Source: Pseudomonadota bacterium (GTDB lineage: Bacteria; Pseudomonadota; Gammaproteobacteria; Burkholderiales; Burkholderiaceae_C). From it: 64,000 nt of DNA. The notes under the pieces were generated by a model. The model ran no database searches. It worked only from the letters and a program-made list of their open reading frames with translations, and was not told where the DNA came from. Positions 1 through 15,058 of this stretch are shown in pieces (position 1 is the first letter of the stretch; every line of letters starts with the position of its first letter). A program made the position numbers and the translations under genes. The DNA is taken from assembly GCA_022566735.1 (NCBI GenBank), contig JADFIG010000004.1, positions 62,001 through 126,000 of the forward strand, given 5' to 3'.

Positions 1-325
1 GAATCAGGTTTTCCAGCGGGCGCCTTGGGTTTTTGTTGCGCGCGCTCAGGGCCGGGTCAAGGGCAGTTTCACGAGGGTGTCATTCAGGGGGCAATACCGG
101 GCCATGCCGGCGACGTCCGGGCACGCCGCGGGCGACTGGGGCGCGGGGCGTGGCGGTCGAGGGCGCGGTGGATGTCATGGCAGGGCCTTCCAGTTCAGTC
201 GGATCGAACGCCCCGGACGGGCGCACTGAAAGGCGGGCCGCTCGCGCCGTTTCCCTGGGGAAACGTGCGATGACAGACAGGCAGCCCCATGGCCGTGAGG
301 CCACGAAGGGCAAGGTCAGGCAGTG
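1..325. other. Non-coding leader region left of the riboswitch
   Basis: No open frame here has recognisable protein features. The longest minus-strand frame (313 down to 80) would need a TTG start and encodes an arginine/proline-rich, shadow-like product. Because the riboswitch at 326-432 is transcribed leftward, this stretch is most simply read as its downstream leader. The controlled gene would then begin beyond the left edge of the window. A perfect 8-bp inverted repeat with a 2-nt loop lies at 248-265. Confidence 0.5.
248..281 (-). promoter_or_regulatory. Candidate expression platform of the c-di-GMP riboswitch
   Basis: On the minus strand the octamer CCTGTCTG (281-274) is perfectly complementary to CAGACAGG (335-328), which is the 3' edge of the aptamer. 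Pairing between them could compete with closure of the aptamer, the usual logic of a switching leader. Just downstream lies a perfect hairpin (CGTTTCCC, 2-nt loop, GGGAAACG at 265-248) without a U-tract, so intrinsic termination is not shown. The complementarity is observed; its use as a switch is inference. Confidence 0.4.
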
Positions 326-432
326 ACCCTGTCTGGCAACCCCGCTATCGTGATCTGCCTGGGAGATGGGCCAGGACAGACGTTAGACCGGAGGCTTTGC
401 GACCCCGCCTTTCGTGCGGGTGTGCCGGGATG
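326..432 (-). promoter_or_regulatory. Cyclic-di-GMP-I (GEMM) riboswitch aptamer
   Basis: Read on the minus strand, this segment carries the conserved class-I c-di-GMP aptamer elements in order. First is GGCACACC, then a P2 stem capped by a GAAA loop, then GGGUCGCAAAGCCUCCGG directly followed by UCUAA. A P3 stem follows, and finally AUAGCGGGGUUGCC. The match to the Vibrio Vc2 aptamer is near-identical in the core. The RNA binds c-di-GMP and commonly controls motility, matrix or chemotaxis genes. It faces away from fliM, so its target is a leftward gene outside the window, plausibly another part of the same flagellar locus. A promoter sits exactly one start-site distance upstream. The family call is firm; the target is unknown. 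Confidence 0.92.
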
Positions 433-439
433 TGAAGCC

Positions 440-468
440 ATGCTAAGTTTTGTTGCGATTTGCCGCAA
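440..468 (-). promoter_or_regulatory. Sigma-70-like promoter of the riboswitch transcript
   Basis: On the minus strand TTGCGG (468-463) and TAGCAT (445-440) are separated by 17 bp. The predicted start, about 7 nt downstream, falls near 433, the first bases of the aptamer. The -35 box is only a partial match, but spacing and position support it. Confidence 0.5.
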
Positions 469-819
469 CACCCTGCGTTCAGCATCCGGGGGCTGATGTG
501 CATCAATGCACGGCTTTTCCCAAAACCTCATCCCGCGCCGACCTGAAAATGAAAAAAGTGAGCGCTGTGGTGGCTGATTTTGAAACACATTGTGTCTGTG
601 CGTGACACTTTCATGTCAGCCCGCTTGCGTTGATGTGACAACGCCCGGGAGTGTGGTCAAACGCATCGGATTCAATTTGGCTGCGTGAACTAGTCCCGCC
701 GCACATTGGATTTGATGCGGGGTTTATGGGTGAATTTGCGGGCGCGCTGCCTAGAATGGCGTCGCAGCCCTGGTGTGAATATGGGGCTGAATGGACAGCT
801 TGTCCGGAAACTCCCGCCC

Positions 820-1740
820 ATGAGCCTCTCACCCACCCCTTCCCTGCGGACTGCCTTGGCGTCGGCGCGGCCACACCCGGTGCTGGATCCCCGCAGCCTG
901 GGGCGCCCGGTGCACCGCCTGGACACCTTCACACGCCGCCTCCAGGCCGACCTCGACGAGGTCTTCATCCTGGGCCTCAACCGGCGCTACCGAGCCGGCT
1001 TCGTGCTGCGGGACGTGCGCATCGACCGCACGGCCGCCGTGGAGGCCGTGGGCGTTGCACCTGTGCCGGCGACGCCGCAGCCGCGCTGGCAGTCCCTGGT
1101 CAGCGAGGTGGGCCGCATCGGCTTCAGCATCGACCGCCCCTTGCTGATGACGGTGCTGAACTACCGCTATGGCCTGCATGAGGGCTCCAACGATGGCCGG
1201 TCCGCCGACGAGCCGCTGGCCCCCGAGACCACCACCGAGGCCCGTCTGAGCACCATGCTGGCCCTGCAGTGGGCCAACACCCTGGCGCTGTGCATCGACA
1301 CCCTCCAAGGCACGCTGGACGGCCAGGCCGTGCACGAGTTCACCCCGGTGGCGGGTGCACCCGCGCTGGGCGAGGGCAGCTGGACGGTCACGGCCACCGT
1401 CAGCGAGACGGTGCTGGGTGTCAGCGGCCAGGTGCGCTTCCGCCTGGACGAGGCCTGGATGGCCCGCCTGCTGCGCCAGCTGGCGCCGGCCCGTGAACGC
1501 GCCACGCCCACCGCAGCGCCGCAGGCCCCGCTGCCTGGCCGCCTGTCGCTGACCCTGCAGGCCCGCCTGCTGGAGCAGGAGCTGCCCCTGGGCACCTTGC
1601 TGGACCTGCACGTCGGCGATGTGCTGCCGGTGCGCCTGGGCCTGGCCGATGTGCTGGTCGACGACGCCCGCCTCTTCAAGGCCGCGGTGGCCGAGCACCA
1701 GGGCAAGTTGTGCCTGACCTCTTTCCAAGACGCTGAATGA
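820..1740 (+). CDS. fliM: Flagellar motor switch protein FliM (lateral type)
   Basis: FliM forms the C-ring of the flagellar motor and sets rotation direction. From the ATG at 820 the product has 306 residues. An N-terminal FliM-like middle domain (PVHRLD..., about residues 20-200) is followed by a SpoA/surface-presentation domain near the C terminus (LGTLLDLHVGDVLPVRLG). In-frame ATGs also exist at 706 and 781; 820 was chosen because the conserved part begins right after it. The EIDALL-type CheY-P binding peptide that normally starts FliM is absent from every possible start. The gene is first in a run whose order, fliM-N-P-Q-R-flhB-flhA without fliO or fliL, matches lateral flagellar loci. 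A type III secretion SctQ was considered, but the neighbours are flagellar. Confidence 0.8.
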   Translation: MSLSPTPSLRTALASARPHPVLDPRSLGRPVHRLDTFTRRLQADLDEVFILGLNRRYRAGFVLRDVRIDRTAAVEAVGVAPVPATPQPRWQSLVSEVGRIGFSIDRPLLMTVLNYRYGLHEGSNDGRSADEPLAPETTTEARLSTMLALQWANTLALCIDTLQGTLDGQAVHEFTPVAGAPALGEGSWTVTATVSETVLGVSGQVRFRLDEAWMARLLRQLAPARERATPTAAPQAPLPGRLSLTLQARLLEQELPLGTLLDLHVGDVLPVRLGLADVLVDDARLFKAAVAEHQGKLCLTSFQDAE

Positions 1741-1741
1741 G

Positions 1742-2113
1742 ATGGATGCCATGAGCGACAAACTCGACCTCGACAACCTGCTGGCCGACATCGCGGAAGA
1801 AGGCGCTGCCGCCCAGCCCGCAGCGGCCGCACAAGCCGCGCCTTCGCGCGTGCAGCGCGACTTCACGCAGATGATGCGCAAGATCCCCGTCACGCTGACG
1901 CTGGAGGTGGGCTCGGCGCGCATCTCCCTGCAGGACCTCATGGAGATGGGGCCCGACAGCGTCGTCGAGCTGGACTCCCTGGCCGGCACACCGCTGATCA
2001 TCAAGGTCAACGGCACGCCCATCGGCCGCGCCGAGGTGGTGGTCACCGGCGAGAACCACGGCCTCAAGGTGGTCGAGCTGGCCGACCTGAACCTGGACGC
2101 CCTCAAGCCATGA
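1742..2113 (+). CDS. fliN: Flagellar motor switch protein FliN
   Basis: Small C-ring protein that partners FliM and helps dock export substrates at the flagellar base. The 123-residue product has a short variable, alanine-rich N-terminal part followed by a single SpoA domain (about residues 45-118). That domain carries the typical IPVTLTLEVG start and the GTPIGRAEVVV segment. It starts two bases after the fliM stop, and its end overlaps the fliP start (ATGA at 2110), indicating translational coupling. ATG 1751 is an alternative start. Direct junction to fliP with no fliO between is characteristic of secondary flagellar systems. Confidence 0.92.
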   Translation: MDAMSDKLDLDNLLADIAEEGAAAQPAAAAQAAPSRVQRDFTQMMRKIPVTLTLEVGSARISLQDLMEMGPDSVVELDSLAGTPLIIKVNGTPIGRAEVVVTGENHGLKVVELADLNLDALKP

Positions 2114-2865
2114 TGCGTGCGCGAAGCTGGGGGCTGCGTGGCAGCCTGGCCCTGCTGTGCCTGACGCTGGCGTCCTGGGCCGAGGCGGCCTCGGTGCCGC
2201 TGGCGGCCGCCACCACGCAGGGCGGCACGACGGACTTCACGGTCAAGACCCAGGTCCTGATCATCATGACCCTGCTGGGCCTGCTGCCCTCCATGGTCCT
2301 GATGATGACCAGCTTCACGCGCTTCGTCATCGTGCTGTCGCTGCTGCGCCAGGCCCTGGGCCTGCAGCAGGGCCTGCCCAACCGCATCGTCACCGGCGTG
2401 GCCCTGATCCTGACCCTGCTGGTGATGCGGCCGGTGGGCGAGCAGGTCTGGGACAAGGCCTTCGTGCCCTACGACGAGGACCGCATCGGCCTGCAAGACG
2501 CCCTCAAGGTGGCCGAGGCGCCCGTGTCGCGCTTCATGCTCGCCCAGACCAGCAAGGGCGCGCTGGCCCAGGTGTCGCACCTGGCCGGAGAGAAGGCCGT
2601 GGCCAGGCCCGAGGAGCACGCCTTCACCGTCAAGCTGGCGGCCTTCGTGCTCAGCGAACTCAAGACCGCCTTCCAGATCGGCTGCCTGCTGTTCATCCCC
2701 TTCCTGGTCATCGACCTGGTGGTGTCTTCGGTGCTGATGGCCATGGGCATGATGATGCTGTCGCCGCTGGTCATCTCGCTGCCCTTCAAGCTGCTGCTGT
2801 TCGTGCTGGTCGACGGCTGGACGCTGACCGTCAACACCCTGGTCACCAGCATCCAGGCCAGCTGA
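2110..2865 (+). CDS. fliP: Flagellar export gate protein FliP
   Basis: Core inner-membrane subunit of the flagellar type III export gate, forming a helical pore with FliQ and FliR. It has 251 residues, the usual length. An N-terminal cleavable signal peptide (to about residue 26, ...SWAEA) is followed by transmembrane helices and the conserved blocks LLPSMVLMMTSFTRF and LPFKLLLFVLVDGW. It overlaps fliN by four bases; an ATG at 2113 is the alternative start. No FliO assembly factor is encoded beside it, so maturation must rely on a FliO elsewhere or be FliO-independent. Confidence 0.96.
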   Translation: MMRARSWGLRGSLALLCLTLASWAEAASVPLAAATTQGGTTDFTVKTQVLIIMTLLGLLPSMVLMMTSFTRFVIVLSLLRQALGLQQGLPNRIVTGVALILTLLVMRPVGEQVWDKAFVPYDEDRIGLQDALKVAEAPVSRFMLAQTSKGALAQVSHLAGEKAVARPEEHAFTVKLAAFVLSELKTAFQIGCLLFIPFLVIDLVVSSVLMAMGMMMLSPLVISLPFKLLLFVLVDGWTLTVNTLVTSIQAS

Positions 2866-2877
2866 AAGGACGCCGAC

Positions 2878-3150
2878 ATGCTCACCCCCGAGATCGCCGC
2901 CGACGTCATCAGCGAGAGCCTGCACCTGGTGATGCTGCTGGTGTCGGTGCTGGTGCTGCCGGGCCTGGTCACCGGCCTGCTGGTCAGCCTGTTCCAGGCC
3001 GCCACCCAGATCAACGAGCAGACGCTGAGCTTCCTGCCGCGGCTGCTGGTCACGCTGGTGGTCATGAGCCTGATGGGCGGCTGGCTGTTCGGCTCGCTGA
3101 TGGACTTCTGCGTGTCGGTGTTCGAGCGCGCCGGCAAGCTGGTGGGCTGA
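2878..3150 (+). CDS. fliQ: Flagellar export gate protein FliQ
   Basis: Small (90 residues) two-helix export-gate subunit that packs around FliP in the inner membrane. Both hydrophobic hairpin helices are visible (about residues 15-38 and 50-72), with the conserved segment LFQAATQINEQTLSFLPR between them. A good ribosome-binding site (AAAGGA) precedes the ATG. It sits 12 bp after fliP and 18 bp before fliR in the same operon. Confidence 0.96.
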   Translation: MLTPEIAADVISESLHLVMLLVSVLVLPGLVTGLLVSLFQAATQINEQTLSFLPRLLVTLVVMSLMGGWLFGSLMDFCVSVFERAGKLVG

Positions 3151-3168
3151 CACGGCAGGCCCGGCACC

Positions 3169-3978
3169 ATGGAAGGCTTGTACCCCGCGCTGATGGGCAT
3201 GCTGGGCGACTTCTGGTGGCCCTTCTGCCGCGTCATGGCCATGCTCAGCGTCGCGCCCATCATCGGCGAGGCCAGCGTGCCCTTGCCCTTGCGCGTGCTG
3301 CTGTCGCTGGTGCTGGCCGTCATCCTCATCCCCGCGGTGCACGTGGCCGCACCCATCGACCCGATGTCCATGCGCGGCGTGCTGGCCACGCTGGAGCAGG
3401 CCGTCATCGGCGGGCTGCTCGGCCTGGCCTTCCACCTGAGCATGGCCGCCATCCTGACCCTGGGCTTCCTGGTGTCCTCGCAGATGGGCCTGTCCATGGC
3501 GGTGATGAACGACCCGCTCAACGGCAGCTCGTCGGACGTCGTCAGCAGCATGCTGTCCATCCTGTGCATCCTGGCCTTCTTCTCGATCGACGGCCACCTG
3601 GTGCTGACCGGCGTGGTCGGCGCGAGCTTCCAGGCCTGGCCGGTGGGCGGTGGCTGGTCGGCGCTGAGCCTGCAGACGGTGGTGCTCAACGTGGCCTGGG
3701 TGTTCTCGGCGGCGCTGCTGCTGGCTGTGCCGGTGGTCTTCGCCACCTTGCTGGTGCAGCTGGGCTTCGGCTTCCTCAACCGCGTGGCGCCCTCGCTGAA
3801 CCTGTTCTCGCTGGGCTTTTCCGTCATCACCCTGTTCGGCCTGTTCGTGCTGGCGCAGGTGGTGCAGTTCGTGCCGGAGCACTATGCGCGCATGACCCAG
3901 CGGGTGCTGGAGATGCTGCAAGGCCTCATGTCACACGGCATGTCGCAAGGCATGGTGCAGGGAGCCCTCCATGGCTGA
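3169..3978 (+). CDS. fliR: Flagellar export gate protein FliR
   Basis: Polytopic inner-membrane export-gate subunit of 269 residues, with the multiple hydrophobic helices of the FliR/SctT family. The family segment VAPIIGEASVPLPLRVLLSLVLA is split over residues 27-49. Its 3' end overlaps the flhB start by 8 bp, so FliR and FlhB are probably translated in a coupled way. The fusion of FliR and FlhB seen in some bacteria is not present here. Confidence 0.95.
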   Translation: MEGLYPALMGMLGDFWWPFCRVMAMLSVAPIIGEASVPLPLRVLLSLVLAVILIPAVHVAAPIDPMSMRGVLATLEQAVIGGLLGLAFHLSMAAILTLGFLVSSQMGLSMAVMNDPLNGSSSDVVSSMLSILCILAFFSIDGHLVLTGVVGASFQAWPVGGGWSALSLQTVVLNVAWVFSAALLLAVPVVFATLLVQLGFGFLNRVAPSLNLFSLGFSVITLFGLFVLAQVVQFVPEHYARMTQRVLEMLQGLMSHGMSQGMVQGALHG

Positions 3979-5107
3979 TCAGGCCGGTGGCGACAAGACC
4001 GAAAAGCCCTCGGCGCAGAAGCTCAAGAAGGCGCGCGAGCAGGGCCAGGCGCCGCGCTCCAAGGACTGGTCCACCGCGGTCGGCCTGCTGGTGGCGCTCA
4101 AGCTCACGGTCTGGCTCATGCCCGGCTACCTGGCCGACTTCAAGCTGATGTTCGCGCTGTGCCTGACCGACCTCAGCGAGCCCGACAGCCTGCAGCGGCT
4201 GGGCTCCGAGCTGGTGCCGGCCACCTTCGAGTTGCTGGTGCGCATGTTGCTGCCGCTGCTGGCCATCCCGGCGGTGCTGATCGTCACCTCGGTCGTGCCG
4301 GGCGGCTTCAACGTCCACGCCGGGCACCTGGCGCCCAAGCTGGACCGCCTCAACCCCTTGAGCAACCTGGGCCGGCTGGTGTCGGCCAAGCACCTCGGCG
4401 AGCTGGCCCTGAGCGTGGCCAAGGCGGCGGTGCTGGGCTGGCTCATCGTGCACCTGGGGCAGGGCGGCATCGACGCCCATGTGCGCCTGCAAGGCCTGCC
4501 GCTGGGCGAGGCGCTGCTGGGCGGCACGCAGCTGCTGCTCGACGGGGTGTTGGCCTTGTGCGCCGTGTTCATCCTGTTCGCGCTGATCGATGTGCCGGTG
4601 CAGCGCATGGTCTTCATGCGGGGCCAGCGCATGAGCAAGCAGGAGATCAAGGAAGAGTACAAGACCCAGGAAGGCCGTCCCGAGGTGCGCCAGCGCATCC
4701 GCCAGTTGCAGCGGGCCATGGCCCAGCGCGGCATCCGCAAGGCCGTGCCCACTGCCGACGTGGTGGTGGTCAACCCCGAGCACTACGCCGTGGCGCTGAA
4801 GTACGACGAGGACCGCGCCGAAGCGCCCTTCGTGGTGGCCAAGGGCATCGACGAGATGGCCTTCGAGATCCGCCGCGTGGCGGCCGAGCATGGCGTGGAC
4901 GTGGTGCCGCTGCCGCCGCTGGCCCGCGCCCTCTACAACACCAGCCAGGTCAACCAGCAGATCCCCGCGCCGCTCTACCGCGCCGTGGCCCTGGTGCTGA
5001 CCTATGTGCTGCAGCTCAAGGCCTTCCAGCAAGGCCGCCGCCCCTCGCAACCGGCCCTGCCCACCGACCTGGGCGTGCCCGAGCACCTGTCACTGAAGAC
5101 ACCGTGA
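3971..5107 (+). CDS. flhB: Flagellar export switch protein FlhB
   Basis: FlhB spans the inner membrane and switches export specificity from rod/hook to filament subunits after autocleavage in its cytoplasmic domain. The 378-residue product shows the basic N terminus (GDKTEKPSAQKLKKAREQGQ), four hydrophobic helices to about residue 215, and the cytoplasmic domain. The cleavage motif, normally NPTH, reads NPEH (residues 268-271). The Asn-Pro bond that is cut is intact, but the Thr is replaced by Glu. This is a real substitution in a clean frame, not a frameshift. FliK, its usual control partner, is encoded convergently at 7192-8385. Confidence 0.95.
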   Translation: MADQAGGDKTEKPSAQKLKKAREQGQAPRSKDWSTAVGLLVALKLTVWLMPGYLADFKLMFALCLTDLSEPDSLQRLGSELVPATFELLVRMLLPLLAIPAVLIVTSVVPGGFNVHAGHLAPKLDRLNPLSNLGRLVSAKHLGELALSVAKAAVLGWLIVHLGQGGIDAHVRLQGLPLGEALLGGTQLLLDGVLALCAVFILFALIDVPVQRMVFMRGQRMSKQEIKEEYKTQEGRPEVRQRIRQLQRAMAQRGIRKAVPTADVVVVNPEHYAVALKYDEDRAEAPFVVAKGIDEMAFEIRRVAAEHGVDVVPLPPLARALYNTSQVNQQIPAPLYRAVALVLTYVLQLKAFQQGRRPSQPALPTDLGVPEHLSLKTP

Positions 5108-5117
5108 AGACCACCGC

Positions 5118-7211
5118 ATGAACGCACTGAGCCGACTTGCCGCCGAGCTGCGACGCCACCAGATCGCCGCGCCCCTGTTCCTGATGGCGCTGCTGGGCAT
5201 GATCATCCTGCCCCTGCCGCCGCTGGTGCTGGACATGCTGTTCACGTTCAACATCGTGCTGGCCTTGATCGTCATCCTGGTGAGCGTGTCCATCCGCCGT
5301 CCGCTGGACTTCGCGGCCTTCCCGACCATCATCCTGGCCACGACCCTCATGCGCCTGGCGCTGAACGTGGCCTCGACCCGCGTGGTGCTGCTGCACGGTC
5401 ACGAGGGCACGGGCGCGGCCGGCCGCGTCATCGAGTCCTTCGGCCACGTCGTCATCGGCGGCAACTTCGTCGTCGGTCTGGTGGTCTTCGTGATCCTGAT
5501 GATCATCAACTTCGTGGTGGTCACCAAGGGCGCGGAGCGCATCTCCGAGGTCTCGGCGCGCTTCACCCTGGACGCGCTGCCCGGCAAGCAGATGGCCATC
5601 GACGCCGACCTCAACGCCGGCCTCATCAACCAGGAGAAGGCGCAGCAGCGCCGCAAGGAAGTGGCCTCGGAAGCCGACTTCCACGGCTCGATGGACGGTG
5701 CCTCGAAGTTCGTGCGCGGCGACGCCATCGCGGGCATCCTGATCCTGCTGATCAACATGATCGGCGGCGTGGCCATCGGCTCGGTGATGCACGACCTGCC
5801 CTTCGGCGATGCCTTCCGCGTCTACGCGCTGCTGACCATCGGCGACGGCCTGGTCGCGCAGATCCCGGCGCTGCTGCTGTCGGCGGCCGCGGCCATCATC
5901 GTCACCCGCATGAGCGACGCGGGCGATTTCCAGGAACAGATCGGCTCGCAGCTGCTGGCTTCGCCCAGCGTGCTCTACAGCGCGGCGGCCGTGATGGGCG
6001 TGCTGGCCATCATCCCTGGCATGCCCTGGATGACCTTCCTGGCCTTTGCTTCTGCCCTGGCCTTTGCCGCCTGGCGCATGGAGCGCCGCCAGCAGGAGCA
6101 GCCCGCCGAGAACGACACCGACAAGCTGGGCACGGCCTTGCTGACCACCTCGGCCGAGCCGGAGCTGAGCTGGCGCAACCTGCCCATCGTCGAGCCGATG
6201 ACGGTGTCGCTGGGCTACAAGCTGGTCGGCCTGATCGACCCCGGCCATGGCGCGCCGCTGCTCAAGCGGGTCAAGGGCATCCGCCAGAGCCTGAGCGAGT
6301 CCCTGGGCGTGCTGCTGCCGCCCATCGGGGTGCGCGACGACCTGGCGCTGCAGCCTTCACAGTACGCGGTGCTGCTGGGTGGCGTGGCCGTGGCCCATGC
6401 CGAGGTGTTTGCCGACCGCCTCATGGCCGTGCCTTCGCCGCAGGTCTATGGCGAGCTCGACGGCATCCCCGGGGTGGAACCGGCTTATGGCCTGCCGGTG
6501 ACCTGGATCGCGCCGGAAGACAAGGCCCACGCGCTGGGCCTGGGCTACCAGGTGGTGGACGTGCCCAGCGTGGTGGCCACGCACCTGGCCAAGCTGGTCC
6601 GCGAGCATCTGGGCGAGCTGTTCGGCCACGAGGACGTCAGCGCCTTGCTGGAGCGGTTGACGGCGCTGTCGCCCAAGCTGGGGGCGGCGCTGGAGAAGGC
6701 CATGCCGGCCACGCTGCTGCTCAAGGTCTTCCGCGCCTTGCTGGTCGAGCAGGTCTCGCTCAAGGACATCGTGCCGGTGGCCACGACCCTGCTGGAGCAC
6801 GCCGAAACCGTCAAGGACCCGCTGCTGCTGGCCGCCGAAGTGCGCTGCACCTTGCGCCGCCAGATCGTCGCCGGGCTGTGCGGTGCCGCGCCGGAGATGA
6901 AGGGCTTCAACCTCGGCAGCGAACTGGAGAACATGCTGCTGGGCTCGCTCAACCAGGCCCGCCAGGCCGGCAAGGTGGTGCTCGACAGCTTCCCCATCGA
7001 CCCCAACCTGCTGTCGCAACTGCAGACCCACATGCCCATCGCCCGTGAGCAGATGAAGCAGCAGGCCACCCCGCCGCTGCTGCTGGTGATGCCGCAGATC
7101 CGGCCCCTGCTGGCCCGCTATGCGCGCCTGTTCGCGCCGGGCCTGAGCGTGCTGTCCTACAACGAGATCCCCGAGAACCGCGAGGTCAACGTCATCGGGA
7201 CGCTGGGCTGA
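5118..7211 (+). CDS. flhA: Flagellar export apparatus protein FlhA
   Basis: FlhA forms the nonameric export ring and proton channel of the flagellar secretion machine. It has 697 residues, full length, with an N-terminal polytopic half (to about residue 325) and a large cytoplasmic domain. The FHIPEP block (LMRLALNVASTRVVLL) is of flagellar rather than virulence-system type. It ends the operon. Its last 20 bp overlap the end of the convergent fliK-like gene, so transcripts collide there. flhF and fleN, which commonly follow flhA in primary flagellar loci of this group, are absent. Confidence 0.97.
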   Translation: MNALSRLAAELRRHQIAAPLFLMALLGMIILPLPPLVLDMLFTFNIVLALIVILVSVSIRRPLDFAAFPTIILATTLMRLALNVASTRVVLLHGHEGTGAAGRVIESFGHVVIGGNFVVGLVVFVILMIINFVVVTKGAERISEVSARFTLDALPGKQMAIDADLNAGLINQEKAQQRRKEVASEADFHGSMDGASKFVRGDAIAGILILLINMIGGVAIGSVMHDLPFGDAFRVYALLTIGDGLVAQIPALLLSAAAAIIVTRMSDAGDFQEQIGSQLLASPSVLYSAAAVMGVLAIIPGMPWMTFLAFASALAFAAWRMERRQQEQPAENDTDKLGTALLTTSAEPELSWRNLPIVEPMTVSLGYKLVGLIDPGHGAPLLKRVKGIRQSLSESLGVLLPPIGVRDDLALQPSQYAVLLGGVAVAHAEVFADRLMAVPSPQVYGELDGIPGVEPAYGLPVTWIAPEDKAHALGLGYQVVDVPSVVATHLAKLVREHLGELFGHEDVSALLERLTALSPKLGAALEKAMPATLLLKVFRALLVEQVSLKDIVPVATTLLEHAETVKDPLLLAAEVRCTLRRQIVAGLCGAAPEMKGFNLGSELENMLLGSLNQARQAGKVVLDSFPIDPNLLSQLQTHMPIAREQMKQQATPPLLLVMPQIRPLLARYARLFAPGLSVLSYNEIPENREVNVIGTLG

Positions 7212-10526: not shown

Positions 10527-10762
10527 GGTCGGGTGGCCGCGGTGGACGCGGCAGGGCTTGGGGTCGGGCCGCATTGTCCCGGATGCAACACCTGTGCATG
10601 CCAGCAGGTGCGGGCTTGTGCGAAATGACACATCATGAGCGCAATCGATTGGCGCATCCCTCGTTTGAAGGACAGCCACGTGTCGGAATTTCAGCGAACA
10701 TCGTCACTTCGGGCGTCTGGCACCCCTCTGGTGCGGCCTGCCTGGCACTCATTCACACACAC

Positions 10763-11758
10763 ATGGCCGATCTACTCGCACCGGGTTTGCTCGACGGCGC
10801 AGCCCTGAACACGGCGGTGCTGCACGCCCTGGATCAGTTGGGCGTGGCGGTTCTCGTCAAAGACCTGTCCACCGGGCGTTACGACCTCTCCAATGGCGCG
10901 GCCCTGCGCCTGCTCGGCCTGGAGGGGCGCGAGCTGGTGGGCGCGCAAGACAGCGACCTCTTCGACGCCACCCTGGCCGTGGCCCTGCGTGCCGCCGACC
11001 TGCAGGCGCGCGCCACGCCCGCAGGCGTGCTCGCCGAGCACAAGCTGGAGCTGGCCTCCGGCCGCCGCGAGTTCCTCACCTGGCGCCAGGCCTTCATGCC
11101 CGAGGAGGGCGTGAGCAAGCTGGTGTCGGTCTGGCAGGACGTCACCGAGGCCCGCCGCCGCGACGCGCAGCTGCAAGGCGCGCTGGCCCAGCTGGAGCAG
11201 CAGCAAAAGGCCAACGAAACCCTGCGTCGCGACGTCGAAGGCAGCCAGGTGCGCGACGCCCTCTCCGGGCTCTACCACCGCGCCCATTTCGAAGAACACC
11301 TCTGCCGCGAGGCCGACCTCTCCAGCCGCGAGCAGCGCGAGTTCGCCCTGGTCGCCATCGCCGTGGACAACATGGACGAGATCCGCCAGGCCCATGGCGT
11401 CGACGGCTGCGAGCGCGTCATCGAATCCCTGGGCCGCCTGCTGCGTGCCGGCACCCGCGCCATGGACGCCCCCTGCCGCCTGGGCGGCGACCGCTTCGTG
11501 GTGCTCCTGTCGGGCGTGGGCCTGGCCACCGCGCACTCGCGCATGGAGCAGCTGCGCCGCCAGTGCGCCCAGCACATCGTGGCCCACAACGGCCAGCAGA
11601 TCCCCTTCACGGTCAGCATGGGCGTGGCGAGCTTCCCGCACACCGCGGGCCTGGTCGACGAGCTCATGCGCAGCGCCGACCGCGCCCTGGCCAGTGCCCG
11701 CGAGAAGGGCGGCAACCGCATCGCGCTGGCCAGCATCCAGTTCACGCCAGCGGCCTGA
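10763..11758 (+). CDS. PAS-GGDEF protein with degenerate active site and intact I-site
   Basis: 331 residues: an N-terminal PAS-like domain (about 15-130), a short coiled coil (about 131-160) and a C-terminal GGDEF domain (about 161-325). The signature reads GGDRF (241-245). The first metal-binding Asp of the usual DxDxFK segment is Ala (IAVDNMDE), and the base-contacting Asn and Asp positions are Arg and Glu. Diguanylate cyclase activity is therefore unlikely. The RxxD inhibitory site is intact at 232-235 with the canonical five-residue spacing to the signature, so the protein may bind c-di-GMP as a receptor. There is no EAL domain and no membrane segment. ATG 10763 was chosen; no strong ribosome-binding site is visible. 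Confidence 0.85.
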   Translation: MADLLAPGLLDGAALNTAVLHALDQLGVAVLVKDLSTGRYDLSNGAALRLLGLEGRELVGAQDSDLFDATLAVALRAADLQARATPAGVLAEHKLELASGRREFLTWRQAFMPEEGVSKLVSVWQDVTEARRRDAQLQGALAQLEQQQKANETLRRDVEGSQVRDALSGLYHRAHFEEHLCREADLSSREQREFALVAIAVDNMDEIRQAHGVDGCERVIESLGRLLRAGTRAMDAPCRLGGDRFVVLLSGVGLATAHSRMEQLRRQCAQHIVAHNGQQIPFTVSMGVASFPHTAGLVDELMRSADRALASAREKGGNRIALASIQFTPAA

Positions 11759-12756: not shown

Positions 12757-12868
12757 GGGGCGCGGCCGCGTGGGGGCGTCGGGCAACGGCGTCAGACAAG
12801 GGCATCTGGCGTCGCTGCATTGTAGGCGTGCCGCGCACGGCCGCAGCCTGGGCTTAGAATCCGCCCCG

Positions 12869-13088
12869 TTGGTGCTCGTGCCGGTGTTCCGCCGGTGCAG
12901 TTAAACGGGAAGCAAGAGGGACCGCGCATCGCCGATGCCGCCTGACTTGCGCTGCCCCCGCAACGGTCGGCGGTCGAGCCGCGCAGGTCTTGCCTGCGTG
13001 TGCTCCGCTTGTGCGCTTCAGCCACTGGGCCCTCGGGCCTGGGAAGGTTCCACAGGTCGCACCGCCCAGCCCGGATACCGGCCAGCAG
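12869..13088 (+). promoter_or_regulatory. Cobalamin (AdoCbl) riboswitch
   Basis: All core landmarks of the B12 element are present in order: GCCGGTG at the 5' edge, TTAAACGGGAA near 12901, and GCTGCCCCCGCAACGGT at 12952-12968. AGCCACTG with its GGGCC hairpin lies near 13019, then TGGGAAGG, and finally AGCCCGGATACCGGCC near 13068-13083. It ends about 87 nt before btuB and should shut the uptake and salvage genes off when B12 is plentiful. No U-tract terminator is visible before the ATG, so control is probably at translation of btuB. The promoter probably overlaps a TAGAAT box at 12855-12860; no good -35 was found. Confidence 0.96.
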
Positions 13089-13174
13089 GGGGTTCGATGG
13101 CCGCGATGCCGTCGGGCCATATCGCCCATGCCTGCGGGGACGCTGGCTCGGGCTCTTGCCTGTCTGTTTCAACC

Positions 13175-15058
13175 ATGTTTTCCTCCTCCCCGGTGCACGT
13201 TCGCTGCGCCCGCTCCGCCGTGGCCATGGCCGCGCTGCTGTCGTGCCTGCAAGCCGCCCAGACCGCCCATGCCGACGATGCCCTCCAGCCCGTGGTCGTC
13301 ACGGCCTCCCGCACGCCGCAGGCCCAGGGCCAGGCCCTGGCCGACACCACGGTGATCTCCCGCGAGGACATCGCCCGCGAAGGTGCCACCGACCTGATGC
13401 AGTTGCTCGGCCGCCAGCCTGGCGTCGAGATGGGCCGCAACGGTGGCCAGGGCACGGCCACCGACCTGTTCGTGCGCGGCGCCAACTCGCGCTTCACGGC
13501 CCTGTACATCGATGGCGTGCGCGTGGACTCGCAGAACCTGCAAGGCGGTGCGCCCTGGAACGCCATCCCCCTGGGCCTGATCGACCGCATCGAGATCGTG
13601 CGCGGCTCGGGCAGCGACCTCTACGGCTCGGACGCCATCGCCGGGGTGGTGCAGGTCTTCACCCGCCGCCCCGACAAGGATGGCGTGCAGCTGGCCGCCG
13701 AGGCGACCGTGGGCTCCTTCGGCCGCAGCAAGTGGCAGGCGGACGTGAGCGGCAAGGCCGCGGCGCTGGACTACGGCCTGTCCTATGGCCGCGACGGCGC
13801 CTTCGGCCAGTCCACCATCGTCAATCCGGCCAACAGCAACCACAACCCCGACCGCGATGGCTTCCGCCAGGAAACCTGGGCCGGCCGCGTGGGTTACCAG
13901 CTCTCCGCTGACCACCGGCTGGAGTCTTCCTTCGCCCGCAACCGCGTGCGTGCGGCCTTTGACAATGGCACTTCGGAGGATGTGAGCCCGCAGGCCACCA
14001 CCGTGGTCAACACCCGCCAGTTGGCCTGGCTGGCGCGCTGGACGCCGCAGCTGTCGGGCAGCTACCGCGTGGGCGAGTCCAGCACGGAAGACATCAGCCG
14101 CACCAGCTCGCTGTTCTTCACCAAGACCCACGCGAAAACCGCCAGCGCCCAGCACGACTGGCGCGAAGGCGTGAACGCCTTGCAACTGCTGCTGGAGCAC
14201 CGCGCCGACAAGATCGACGAAGACGGCACCTATGGTTCTTCGTTCGCCGATGGCAACTCGCGCCGCCAGCAAAACGCCGTGGGCCTGGGCTATGGCTTCG
14301 AGTCGGGTCCGTGGTCGGCCCATGCGCGTGCCCGCGAGGACCACGACAGCGAGTTCGGCCGCCACACCACCGGCAGCCTGGGCGCGGGCTGGCGTTTCGC
14401 GCCGCAGTGGCGTGTGCGCCTGAACTACGCCTCGGCCTTCCGCGCGCCGACGCTGTACGAGCGCTTCACGCAGTACGGCGGCAATGCCGACCTGCAGCCC
14501 GAGTCCTCGCACACGGTCGAGGCGGCGCTGAGCTGGCAGCGTGGCGGCGCGAGCGCTTCGGCCACGGCGTACCACAGCAAGGTGCGCAACCTGATCGACT
14601 ACGTCTACACCGACCCGGCCAACTACATCGGTGGCTACGACAACGTCGGCCGCGCCCGCCTGCAGGGCCTGACGCTGGCTGGCGTCTTGCCGGTGGATGC
14701 GGTGCGCCTGTCGGGCAGCTGGGACATCCAGGACCCGCGCAACGCGCAGACGGGCGAGTCGCTCATCCGCCGTGCGCGCTACCACGGCAAGCTGCAGGCT
14801 GATACAGTGCTGGCGGGCTGGACGACCGGTGTGCAGGGCCAGTTCGCCGGCGGTCGCCGCGACCTGGACGCCAGCCAGAGTTCGGTGCGCCTGGGCGGCT
14901 ACACGCTGTGGAACGTCTTTGCGGGCCGCGACCTGTCGCGCGAGTGGCAGTTGCAGTTGCGCATCGACAACGTCCTCAACAAGCATCACGAACTGGCCCG
15001 CGATTACGGCGTGCCCGGCACCGCGGCTTTCGTGACCCTGCGCTATCAGCCTCGCTGA
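13175..15058 (+). CDS. btuB: TonB-dependent vitamin B12 receptor BtuB
   Basis: Outer-membrane beta-barrel receptor that imports cobalamin or cobinamide with TonB energy. From the ATG at 13175 it has 627 residues. A signal peptide (to about residue 31, AQTAHA) is followed by the TonB-box region PVVVTASRTP, then the plug domain (about 40-160) with GVRVDSQN and EIVRGSGSDLYGSDAIAGVVQVF. The 22-strand barrel ends in an aromatic-containing final strand (FVTLRYQPR). Its position right after the cobalamin riboswitch and before B12 genes settles the substrate. Confidence 0.95.
   Translation: MFSSSPVHVRCARSAVAMAALLSCLQAAQTAHADDALQPVVVTASRTPQAQGQALADTTVISREDIAREGATDLMQLLGRQPGVEMGRNGGQGTATDLFVRGANSRFTALYIDGVRVDSQNLQGGAPWNAIPLGLIDRIEIVRGSGSDLYGSDAIAGVVQVFTRRPDKDGVQLAAEATVGSFGRSKWQADVSGKAAALDYGLSYGRDGAFGQSTIVNPANSNHNPDRDGFRQETWAGRVGYQLSADHRLESSFARNRVRAAFDNGTSEDVSPQATTVVNTRQLAWLARWTPQLSGSYRVGESSTEDISRTSSLFFTKTHAKTASAQHDWREGVNALQLLLEHRADKIDEDGTYGSSFADGNSRRQQNAVGLGYGFESGPWSAHARAREDHDSEFGRHTTGSLGAGWRFAPQWRVRLNYASAFRAPTLYERFTQYGGNADLQPESSHTVEAALSWQRGGASASATAYHSKVRNLIDYVYTDPANYIGGYDNVGRARLQGLTLAGVLPVDAVRLSGSWDIQDPRNAQTGESLIRRARYHGKLQADTVLAGWTTGVQGQFAGGRRDLDASQSSVRLGGYTLWNVFAGRDLSREWQLQLRIDNVLNKHHELARDYGVPGTAAFVTLRYQPR

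Follow-up and report, generated by a model that had tools for sequence, protein, structure and literature searches.

A c-di-GMP-I riboswitch precedes fliE at a second flagellar locus of Burkholderiales and may switch through a leader complementary to its own aptamer

Introduction

c-di-GMP and flagella are usually inversely related. The window analysed here (the whole stretch of 64,000 nucleotides, bases 62001-126000 of a 207,554-base contig from a member of the Burkholderiales) holds near its left edge, between two divergent sets of flagellar genes, an RNA element that an earlier note, made from the letters alone, had read as a class-I c-di-GMP riboswitch. Its position raises the question of which gene such an RNA would control, by which structure it would switch, and in which direction. 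The aptamer class, and the control of flagella by that class, are already known: in the available part of PMC9262584, the Cd1 c-di-GMP-I riboswitch upstream of the Clostridioides difficile flagellar genes is described as a transcriptional OFF-switch. Another member of the class, Bc1 of Bacillus thuringiensis, has a long expression platform with two intrinsic terminators, according to the accessible text of PMC11218506.

Results

Scanning of the whole window with cmscan gave a match to RF01051 (c-di-GMP-I) at 436-332 on the minus strand, with a score of 58.8 bits (E 6.3e-9) against a gathering score of 35 bits. The match covers model positions 1-87 of 87, and zero non-standard pairs are marked in the alignment. 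Along the minus strand, GGCACACC, a GAAA-capped P2, GGGUCGCAAAGCCUCCGG, a long P3 and AUAGCGGGGUUGCC follow one another, and P1, P2 with its GAAA loop, P3 and the conserved junction are all present. The GEMM-I core that the earlier note had described, with its motifs in this order, was thus confirmed by the covariance model that it had named as a check. At the positions that we take to correspond to G20, A47 and C92 of Vc2, which are contacts of the ligand, the window aptamer has G, A and C, and the same three bases stand there in all 34 flagellar aptamers described below, as judged from alignments and sequences. In GEMM-Ib (cGAMP) riboswitches, A replaces G20; membership of that group was rejected, since the window aptamer has G, not A, at the mapped place. 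Likewise, membership of the c-di-GMP-I-GGC family (RF03167) was rejected, since RF01051 was the best clan match for the window aptamer. By these comparisons, window 332-436 (minus strand) is a riboswitch of the known c-di-GMP-I class, full-length with respect to RF01051 and predicted to bind the ligand. The roles of the three contacts are described in the available part of PMC9049102. Among the homologues, the L117 aptamer (2980-3080, minus strand) was by E-value closer to RF03167 than to RF01051, with an RF03167 score of 51.5 that lies below the threshold of 59.

The gene that the riboswitch would control lies beyond the left edge of the window, where the earlier note had placed it, as a probable part of the same locus. 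When the sequence to the left of position 1 was read, the first gene past the aptamer, by position and strand, was fliE (contig C36, about 196-558 bases left of window position 1, minus strand; PF02049, 67.3 bits). Its start is 527 nt from the aptamer 3' end, so that the aptamer lies in the 5' leader of a same-strand gene; the first part of this leader occupies window positions 1..331 (minus strand) and the rest lies outside the window. Profile matches identified fliF, fliG, fliH, a gene for a FliI-type ATPase and fliJ behind fliE on the riboswitch strand, and further along a FliD-like gene, fliS, fliK, a weak FliL match, the gene for a FliA/WhiG sigma factor (sigma28) and motA, while Pfam recognised nothing in a small ORF located between fliS and fliK. 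In the opposite direction runs the fliM of the second system at 796..1740 (plus strand; start uncertain, ORF from 706). Its product scored 32.3 bits with Pfam FliMN_C (cut-off 23.8) and is far from standard FliM, with 25.6 bits against an NCBIfam equivalog cut-off of 219.6. It is followed by fliN, fliP, fliQ, fliR, flhB and flhA (1742..7211, plus strand) and, downstream of flhA, by a flagellin gene. As the genome contains two FlhA matches and two FliP matches, the fliM/fliE locus represents a second flagellar system, which upholds the description of the locus as secondary. Coordination of lateral flagella with c-di-GMP by this riboswitch is plausible.

The gene content resembles flag-2 cluster 1 of Enterobacterales, which is given as lfhAB-lfiRQPNM-lafK-lfiEFGHIJ in the available part of PMC6993521: flhA, flhB, fliR, Q, P, N and M likewise stand next to fliE, F, G, H, I and J, and both are second flagellar systems beside a primary one. 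Unlike that published order, the window locus has no lafK between fliM and fliE, and a riboswitch leader stands in the lafK place; moreover, the fliE and fliM arms of window-type loci are divergent. In the window, the fliM/fliE gap holds the riboswitch leader only, and no ORF of gene size and coding composition was assigned to it.

Other elements of the window and the genome were recorded beside this locus. Close to the flagellin gene, 10574-11758 (plus strand) encodes a PAS-GGDEF protein with the motif GGDRF instead of GGDEF, possibly a c-di-GMP link or a degenerate cyclase. A Cobalamin riboswitch at 12853-13100 (plus strand; 55 bits, gathering score 31.5) overlaps the start of the ORF at 12935-15058, which encodes TonB receptor barrel and plug domains, and is probably an ordinary B12 receptor leader. 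The flagellar aptamer was the single c-di-GMP-I match above threshold in the window and one of two in the 3.8-Mb genome (89% complete). The second aptamer (L004; G000:C20:78336-78421, minus strand, 54.1 bits) precedes, on another contig, an operon that includes the gene of a small GTPase-like protein (ATP_bind_1). We take the neighbours of the ATP_bind_1 gene to be roadblock-like, and the single such candidate checked against Pfam had no match.

As to the start of the transcript, the earlier note had proposed a promoter with a 17-bp spacer at the edge of the aptamer. The hexamers TTGCGG (463..468) and TAGCAT (440..445) do lie 17 bp apart on the minus strand, and the latter ends 3 nt before the aptamer model start, so that the elements, spacing and distance stand; the agreement with consensus is weak (5 mismatches of 12), and a stricter scan for sigma70-type promoters in the region around the aptamer and in the window leader found none. 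A promoter at this place is favoured by the homologous aptamers, 21 of 34 of which have TACAGT or TACATT at most about 20 nt upstream, the window copy not being one of them. A palindrome, GTGCATCAATGCAC, occupies 498..511, 75 nt upstream of the aptamer, and has the form GTG-N8-CAC. Of the 34 homologous aptamers, 22 have this form within 130 nt upstream, compared with 2.06 expected from shuffles, at -75 to -85 with one further copy at -34. It resembles a CRP/FNR-type site, possibly for an activator, and a second signal may therefore enter at the promoter.

To what extent does the riboswitch accompany this flagellar system? Within the genus, FliP of the window type was found in only 2 of 42 genomes, the window genome (100% identity) and G020 (86%), with about 50% identity for the best FliP of the others, and both genomes have the aptamer between fliE and fliM. 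In the family, c-di-GMP-I aptamers occur in 116 of 399 sampled genomes, up to six per genome and mostly outside this locus. This FliM is encoded in 24 of the 399, and in 20 of these 24 the fliM/fliE gap contains an aptamer, in every case on the strand of fliE; the four without it belong to one genus. A scan of named genomes yielded 71 loci with a gene for a relative of this FliM, and an aptamer model (R1, built from 36 aptamers, 21 flagellar and 15 not) revealed 25 aptamers in 24 of them. The one locus with two aptamers, in a Rhodocyclaceae MAG (L137), carries near-identical copies back to back at 3116-3203 (minus strand) and 3556-3643 (plus strand), one for each divergent operon (the fliE arm and the fliM arm).

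In eight of the 71 named loci, from Pseudorhodoferax, Variovorax, Acidovorax and Curvibacter, a gap of about 2.7 kb contains a histidine kinase and a BetR-REC regulator and no aptamer. The pair was sought with the two proteins of locus L119 as sole queries (a receiver-domain histidine kinase at 1028-2302, plus strand, and BetR-REC at 2223-3125, minus strand, in the gap), and the same pair lies in the gaps of L144, L154, L157, L158, L161, L164, L166 and L175. The remaining 39 loci comprise 37 gaps with neither regulator, mostly from Massilia or Telluria, and two contig ends without fliE (L202 and L203), which cannot be judged. Aptamer and two-component pair were found together in none of the 71. 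Rfam at the gathering threshold gave no match in 16 aptamer-less loci (12 of the 37 with neither regulator and four of the eight with the pair), and the other aptamer-less named loci were scanned with R1 alone. Compared with flag-2, lafK is thus replaced by a riboswitch leader, by a histidine kinase with BetR-REC, or by a short gap, depending on the locus.

The window was placed together with 45 of the 71 named loci on a FliM tree (46 rows, root uncertain). Its aptamer rows fall in five families, Sphaerotilaceae, Comamonadaceae, Rhodocyclaceae, Zoogloeaceae and Steroidobacteraceae, the last being represented by a gammaproteobacterial MAG. The two-component rows form one clade (support 100/99), and the three states (aptamer, two-component pair or neither) require four changes on the tree, compared with 19.0 when the labels were shuffled. 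This pattern fits an old riboswitch with several losses or replacements, as far as these sequences reach; transfer of the riboswitch between lineages is a further possibility.

The leader between aptamer and fliE is long: the 21 loci for which a fliE start was assigned have 352-658 nt. In the closest loci, a conserved block with GUUGUGACC stands behind the aptamer, and on free folding this block and the following leader pair with GGUCGCAA and GAAAGYC of the aptamer. We measured this complementarity between the aptamer 5' half and leader positions +10 to +200, using dinucleotide shuffles of the leader as reference. The mean z of 21 flagellar aptamers was -2.14, with 18 of the 21 at z <= -1 and no excess complementarity in L110, L112 and L113. 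Thirteen flagellar aptamers found later, five of them close kin of the first set, had z values from -1.24 to -3.47 (mean -2.06), and all 13 were at z <= -1.2, which brings the count at z <= -1 to 31 of 34. For the window, the duplex reached -53.8 kcal/mol (z -2.6; 2 of 200 shuffles were as good). The aptamer strand available for it lies at 404..418 (minus strand) and comprises both strands of P2 and the GAAA loop, with CGCAC at 414-418 and GAAAGGCGGG at 404-413; the putative anti-aptamer segment lies at 210..255 (minus strand). GAAAGGCGGG would pair with CCCGCCUUUC (228-237), and CGCAC with GUGCG (222-226).

Such complementarity might have another origin, and the strongest alternative is that the aptamer is real and the complementary segment is no switch: a GC-rich leader would be repetitive by descent, and the operon would be controlled by another route, such as a protein, Rho alone or a downstream fliE promoter. 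In the 19 closest leaders, sliding the partners lowered pairing from 89.8% to 28-48%. The main anti-aptamer helix is paired in all 19 and invariant, so that no covariation was found in this central helix among them; this and the three of 34 leaders without excess agree with a mere repeat, and a leader of 350-660 nt has room for another promoter, although the strict scan, which covered the sigma70 type alone, found none. Several results argue against it. The same script applied to 46 non-flagellar aptamers of the genus and family, namely those with fetched loci and hence the better-scoring ones, gave a mean z of +0.10 and 8 of 46 at z <= -1, that is, no excess. In a 34 x 34 swap test, own aptamer-leader pairs were better than permuted ones (p = 0.0001), a p value that, like the others, is overstated because there are 19 distinct aptamer halves among the 34 related leaders. 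The window aptamer came first of the 34 on its own leader, at -53.8 where the other aptamers averaged -42.8. On the leaders of L112 and L111, by contrast, their own aptamers took places 34 and 31 of 34. Complementarity also occurs in divergent, poorly aligning genera (L139, L141, L145 and L168). We consider the repeat explanation unlikely on balance. The leader behind the aptamer is probably an anti-aptamer expression platform, and we regard it as quite likely, from base pairing and its distribution, that the complementary segment functions in this way.

How the platform might act on the operon is less clear from the leaders. In the window, a putative leader ORF of 32 codons lies at 80..178 (minus strand) behind GGAAGG at 186-191, and 27 of the 34 leaders have an SD-like sequence with ATG or GTG at +112 to +165, which mostly opens a short ORF and in one case (L204) is the start of fliE itself. 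A conserved small protein was rejected: ORF lengths range from 4 to more than 100 codons, with little likeness. For the 26 leaders with a clear SD-ATG (8 of the 34 lack one), folding a short transcript gave 21 whose start region was more open in the full fold than after the aptamer had been set aside (Wilcoxon p = 0.002). The gain at the start was nearly nil on average with 80 nt more transcript, and with this longer transcript the start codon bin of the window leader was less open without ligand (-0.26). In L204, folding the downstream part by itself places the fliE SD in a CUCUCC/GGAGAG hairpin. The freed segment was no more complementary to the ORF start than shuffled sequences were (mean z -0.19 for 32 of the 34 leaders): six of 32 were under -1, compared with five and three of 32 for control stretches, and the window had z +0.25. 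Striking single cases picked out by eye (GCCUUUCAG/CUGGAAGGC in the window; L120 and L165 against the MSK group) are not counted as proof.

Conserved intrinsic termination was also rejected, a terminator being present in just 4 of 34 leaders. With regard to Rho, 21 of 34 leaders have their 80-nt stretch of greatest C-over-G excess beginning between +95 and +165, a range that was chosen after looking and has no control. A search for a tandem or other second RNA after the aptamer in L115, L117, L126, L127 and L003 gave no Rfam match at E 0.5. With these tests mixed or negative, the folding models leave a step through the small ORF and Rho doubtful.

Discussion

We propose, as a working model that we judge reasonably likely as a whole, that a c-di-GMP-I riboswitch heads the transcript of fliE, fliF and the following genes of a second, flag-2/lateral-like flagellar system. 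The aptamer would be transcribed first, and bound c-di-GMP would keep it folded. Without ligand, the complementary segment, made 75-125 nt later, would pair with the aptamer 5' half, at the P2 strand, the GAAA loop and the junction with the ligand-stacking adenine, and would dismantle the aptamer. In the bound state, the freed segment could mask a small-ORF start near +150 (that of fliE itself in a Steroidobacteraceae locus), and the untranslated leader would then be open to Rho, which would turn the operon OFF at high c-di-GMP.

Regarding direction, we lean moderately towards OFF at high c-di-GMP. The opposite sign, an ordinary c-di-GMP-I ON-switch through which the second flagellum would be expressed more strongly at high c-di-GMP, as might suit surface life, is fairly improbable in our view: the Cd1 precedent, the SD hairpin of L204, the start regions of 21 of 26 leaders and the usual inverse relation between c-di-GMP and flagella all lean to OFF. 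The accessibility calculations are nevertheless too weak to fix the sign, and homologous aptamers serve switches of both kinds, Cd1 being OFF and pilM ON in the available part of PMC9262584. A decayed or ligand-switched relative that does not sense c-di-GMP, such as a cGAMP or c-di-GMP-I-GGC variant, finds some favour in the sub-threshold affinity of L117 to RF03167 and is highly improbable, since RF01051 is best for the window and G, A and C stand at the mapped contacts throughout.

Under the OFF model, the switch would be like Cd1, as described in the accessible text on that riboswitch, in its aptamer class, in heading a flagellar cluster and, as proposed here, in a strand that competes with the aptamer to give an OFF switch. 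It would differ in that Cd1 ends in an intrinsic terminator, whereas the window-type leaders of 350-660 nt have no conserved one, and in that the competing strand pairs with the aptamer 5' half here and with the 3' stabilising strand in Cd1; moreover, the present system is a second flagellum and belongs to another phylum. With Bc1, as far as its available description goes, the window-type leaders share a c-di-GMP-I aptamer with an unusually long platform, but not the two intrinsic terminators of Bc1, none being conserved among them.

What appears to be new is that the riboswitch has a conserved place at a second flagellar locus, that a two-component system is exchanged for it, and that its platform is self-complementary. 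In the open-access literature (titles and abstract starts, with subscription journals outside the scope of the search), we found no report that places a c-di-GMP riboswitch beside lateral or second flagellar genes in these bacteria, and nothing on a c-di-GMP riboswitch with flagellar genes in Burkholderiales or on Aquabacterium riboswitches. The broadest reading is that, in several proteobacterial families, one c-di-GMP-I riboswitch lineage took the lafK place, which is that of a protein master regulator; that these riboswitches switch when a near-antisense copy of the aptamer 5' half takes the aptamer apart; and that one clade swapped to a two-component system. We put this close to even, slightly on the doubtful side.

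If the model is true, no dedicated protein regulator would stand between c-di-GMP and an entire second flagellum: the signal would act directly on its first gene in many Burkholderiales of soil and water, in Rhodocyclales and in at least one gammaproteobacterial MAG. As an expression platform, the complementary leader would differ from the terminator type of Cd1, and the loci with an RNA sensor, a two-component system or neither would form a natural experiment on regulator exchange. For these bacteria, the riboswitch may let c-di-GMP decide directly whether the second flagellum is built.
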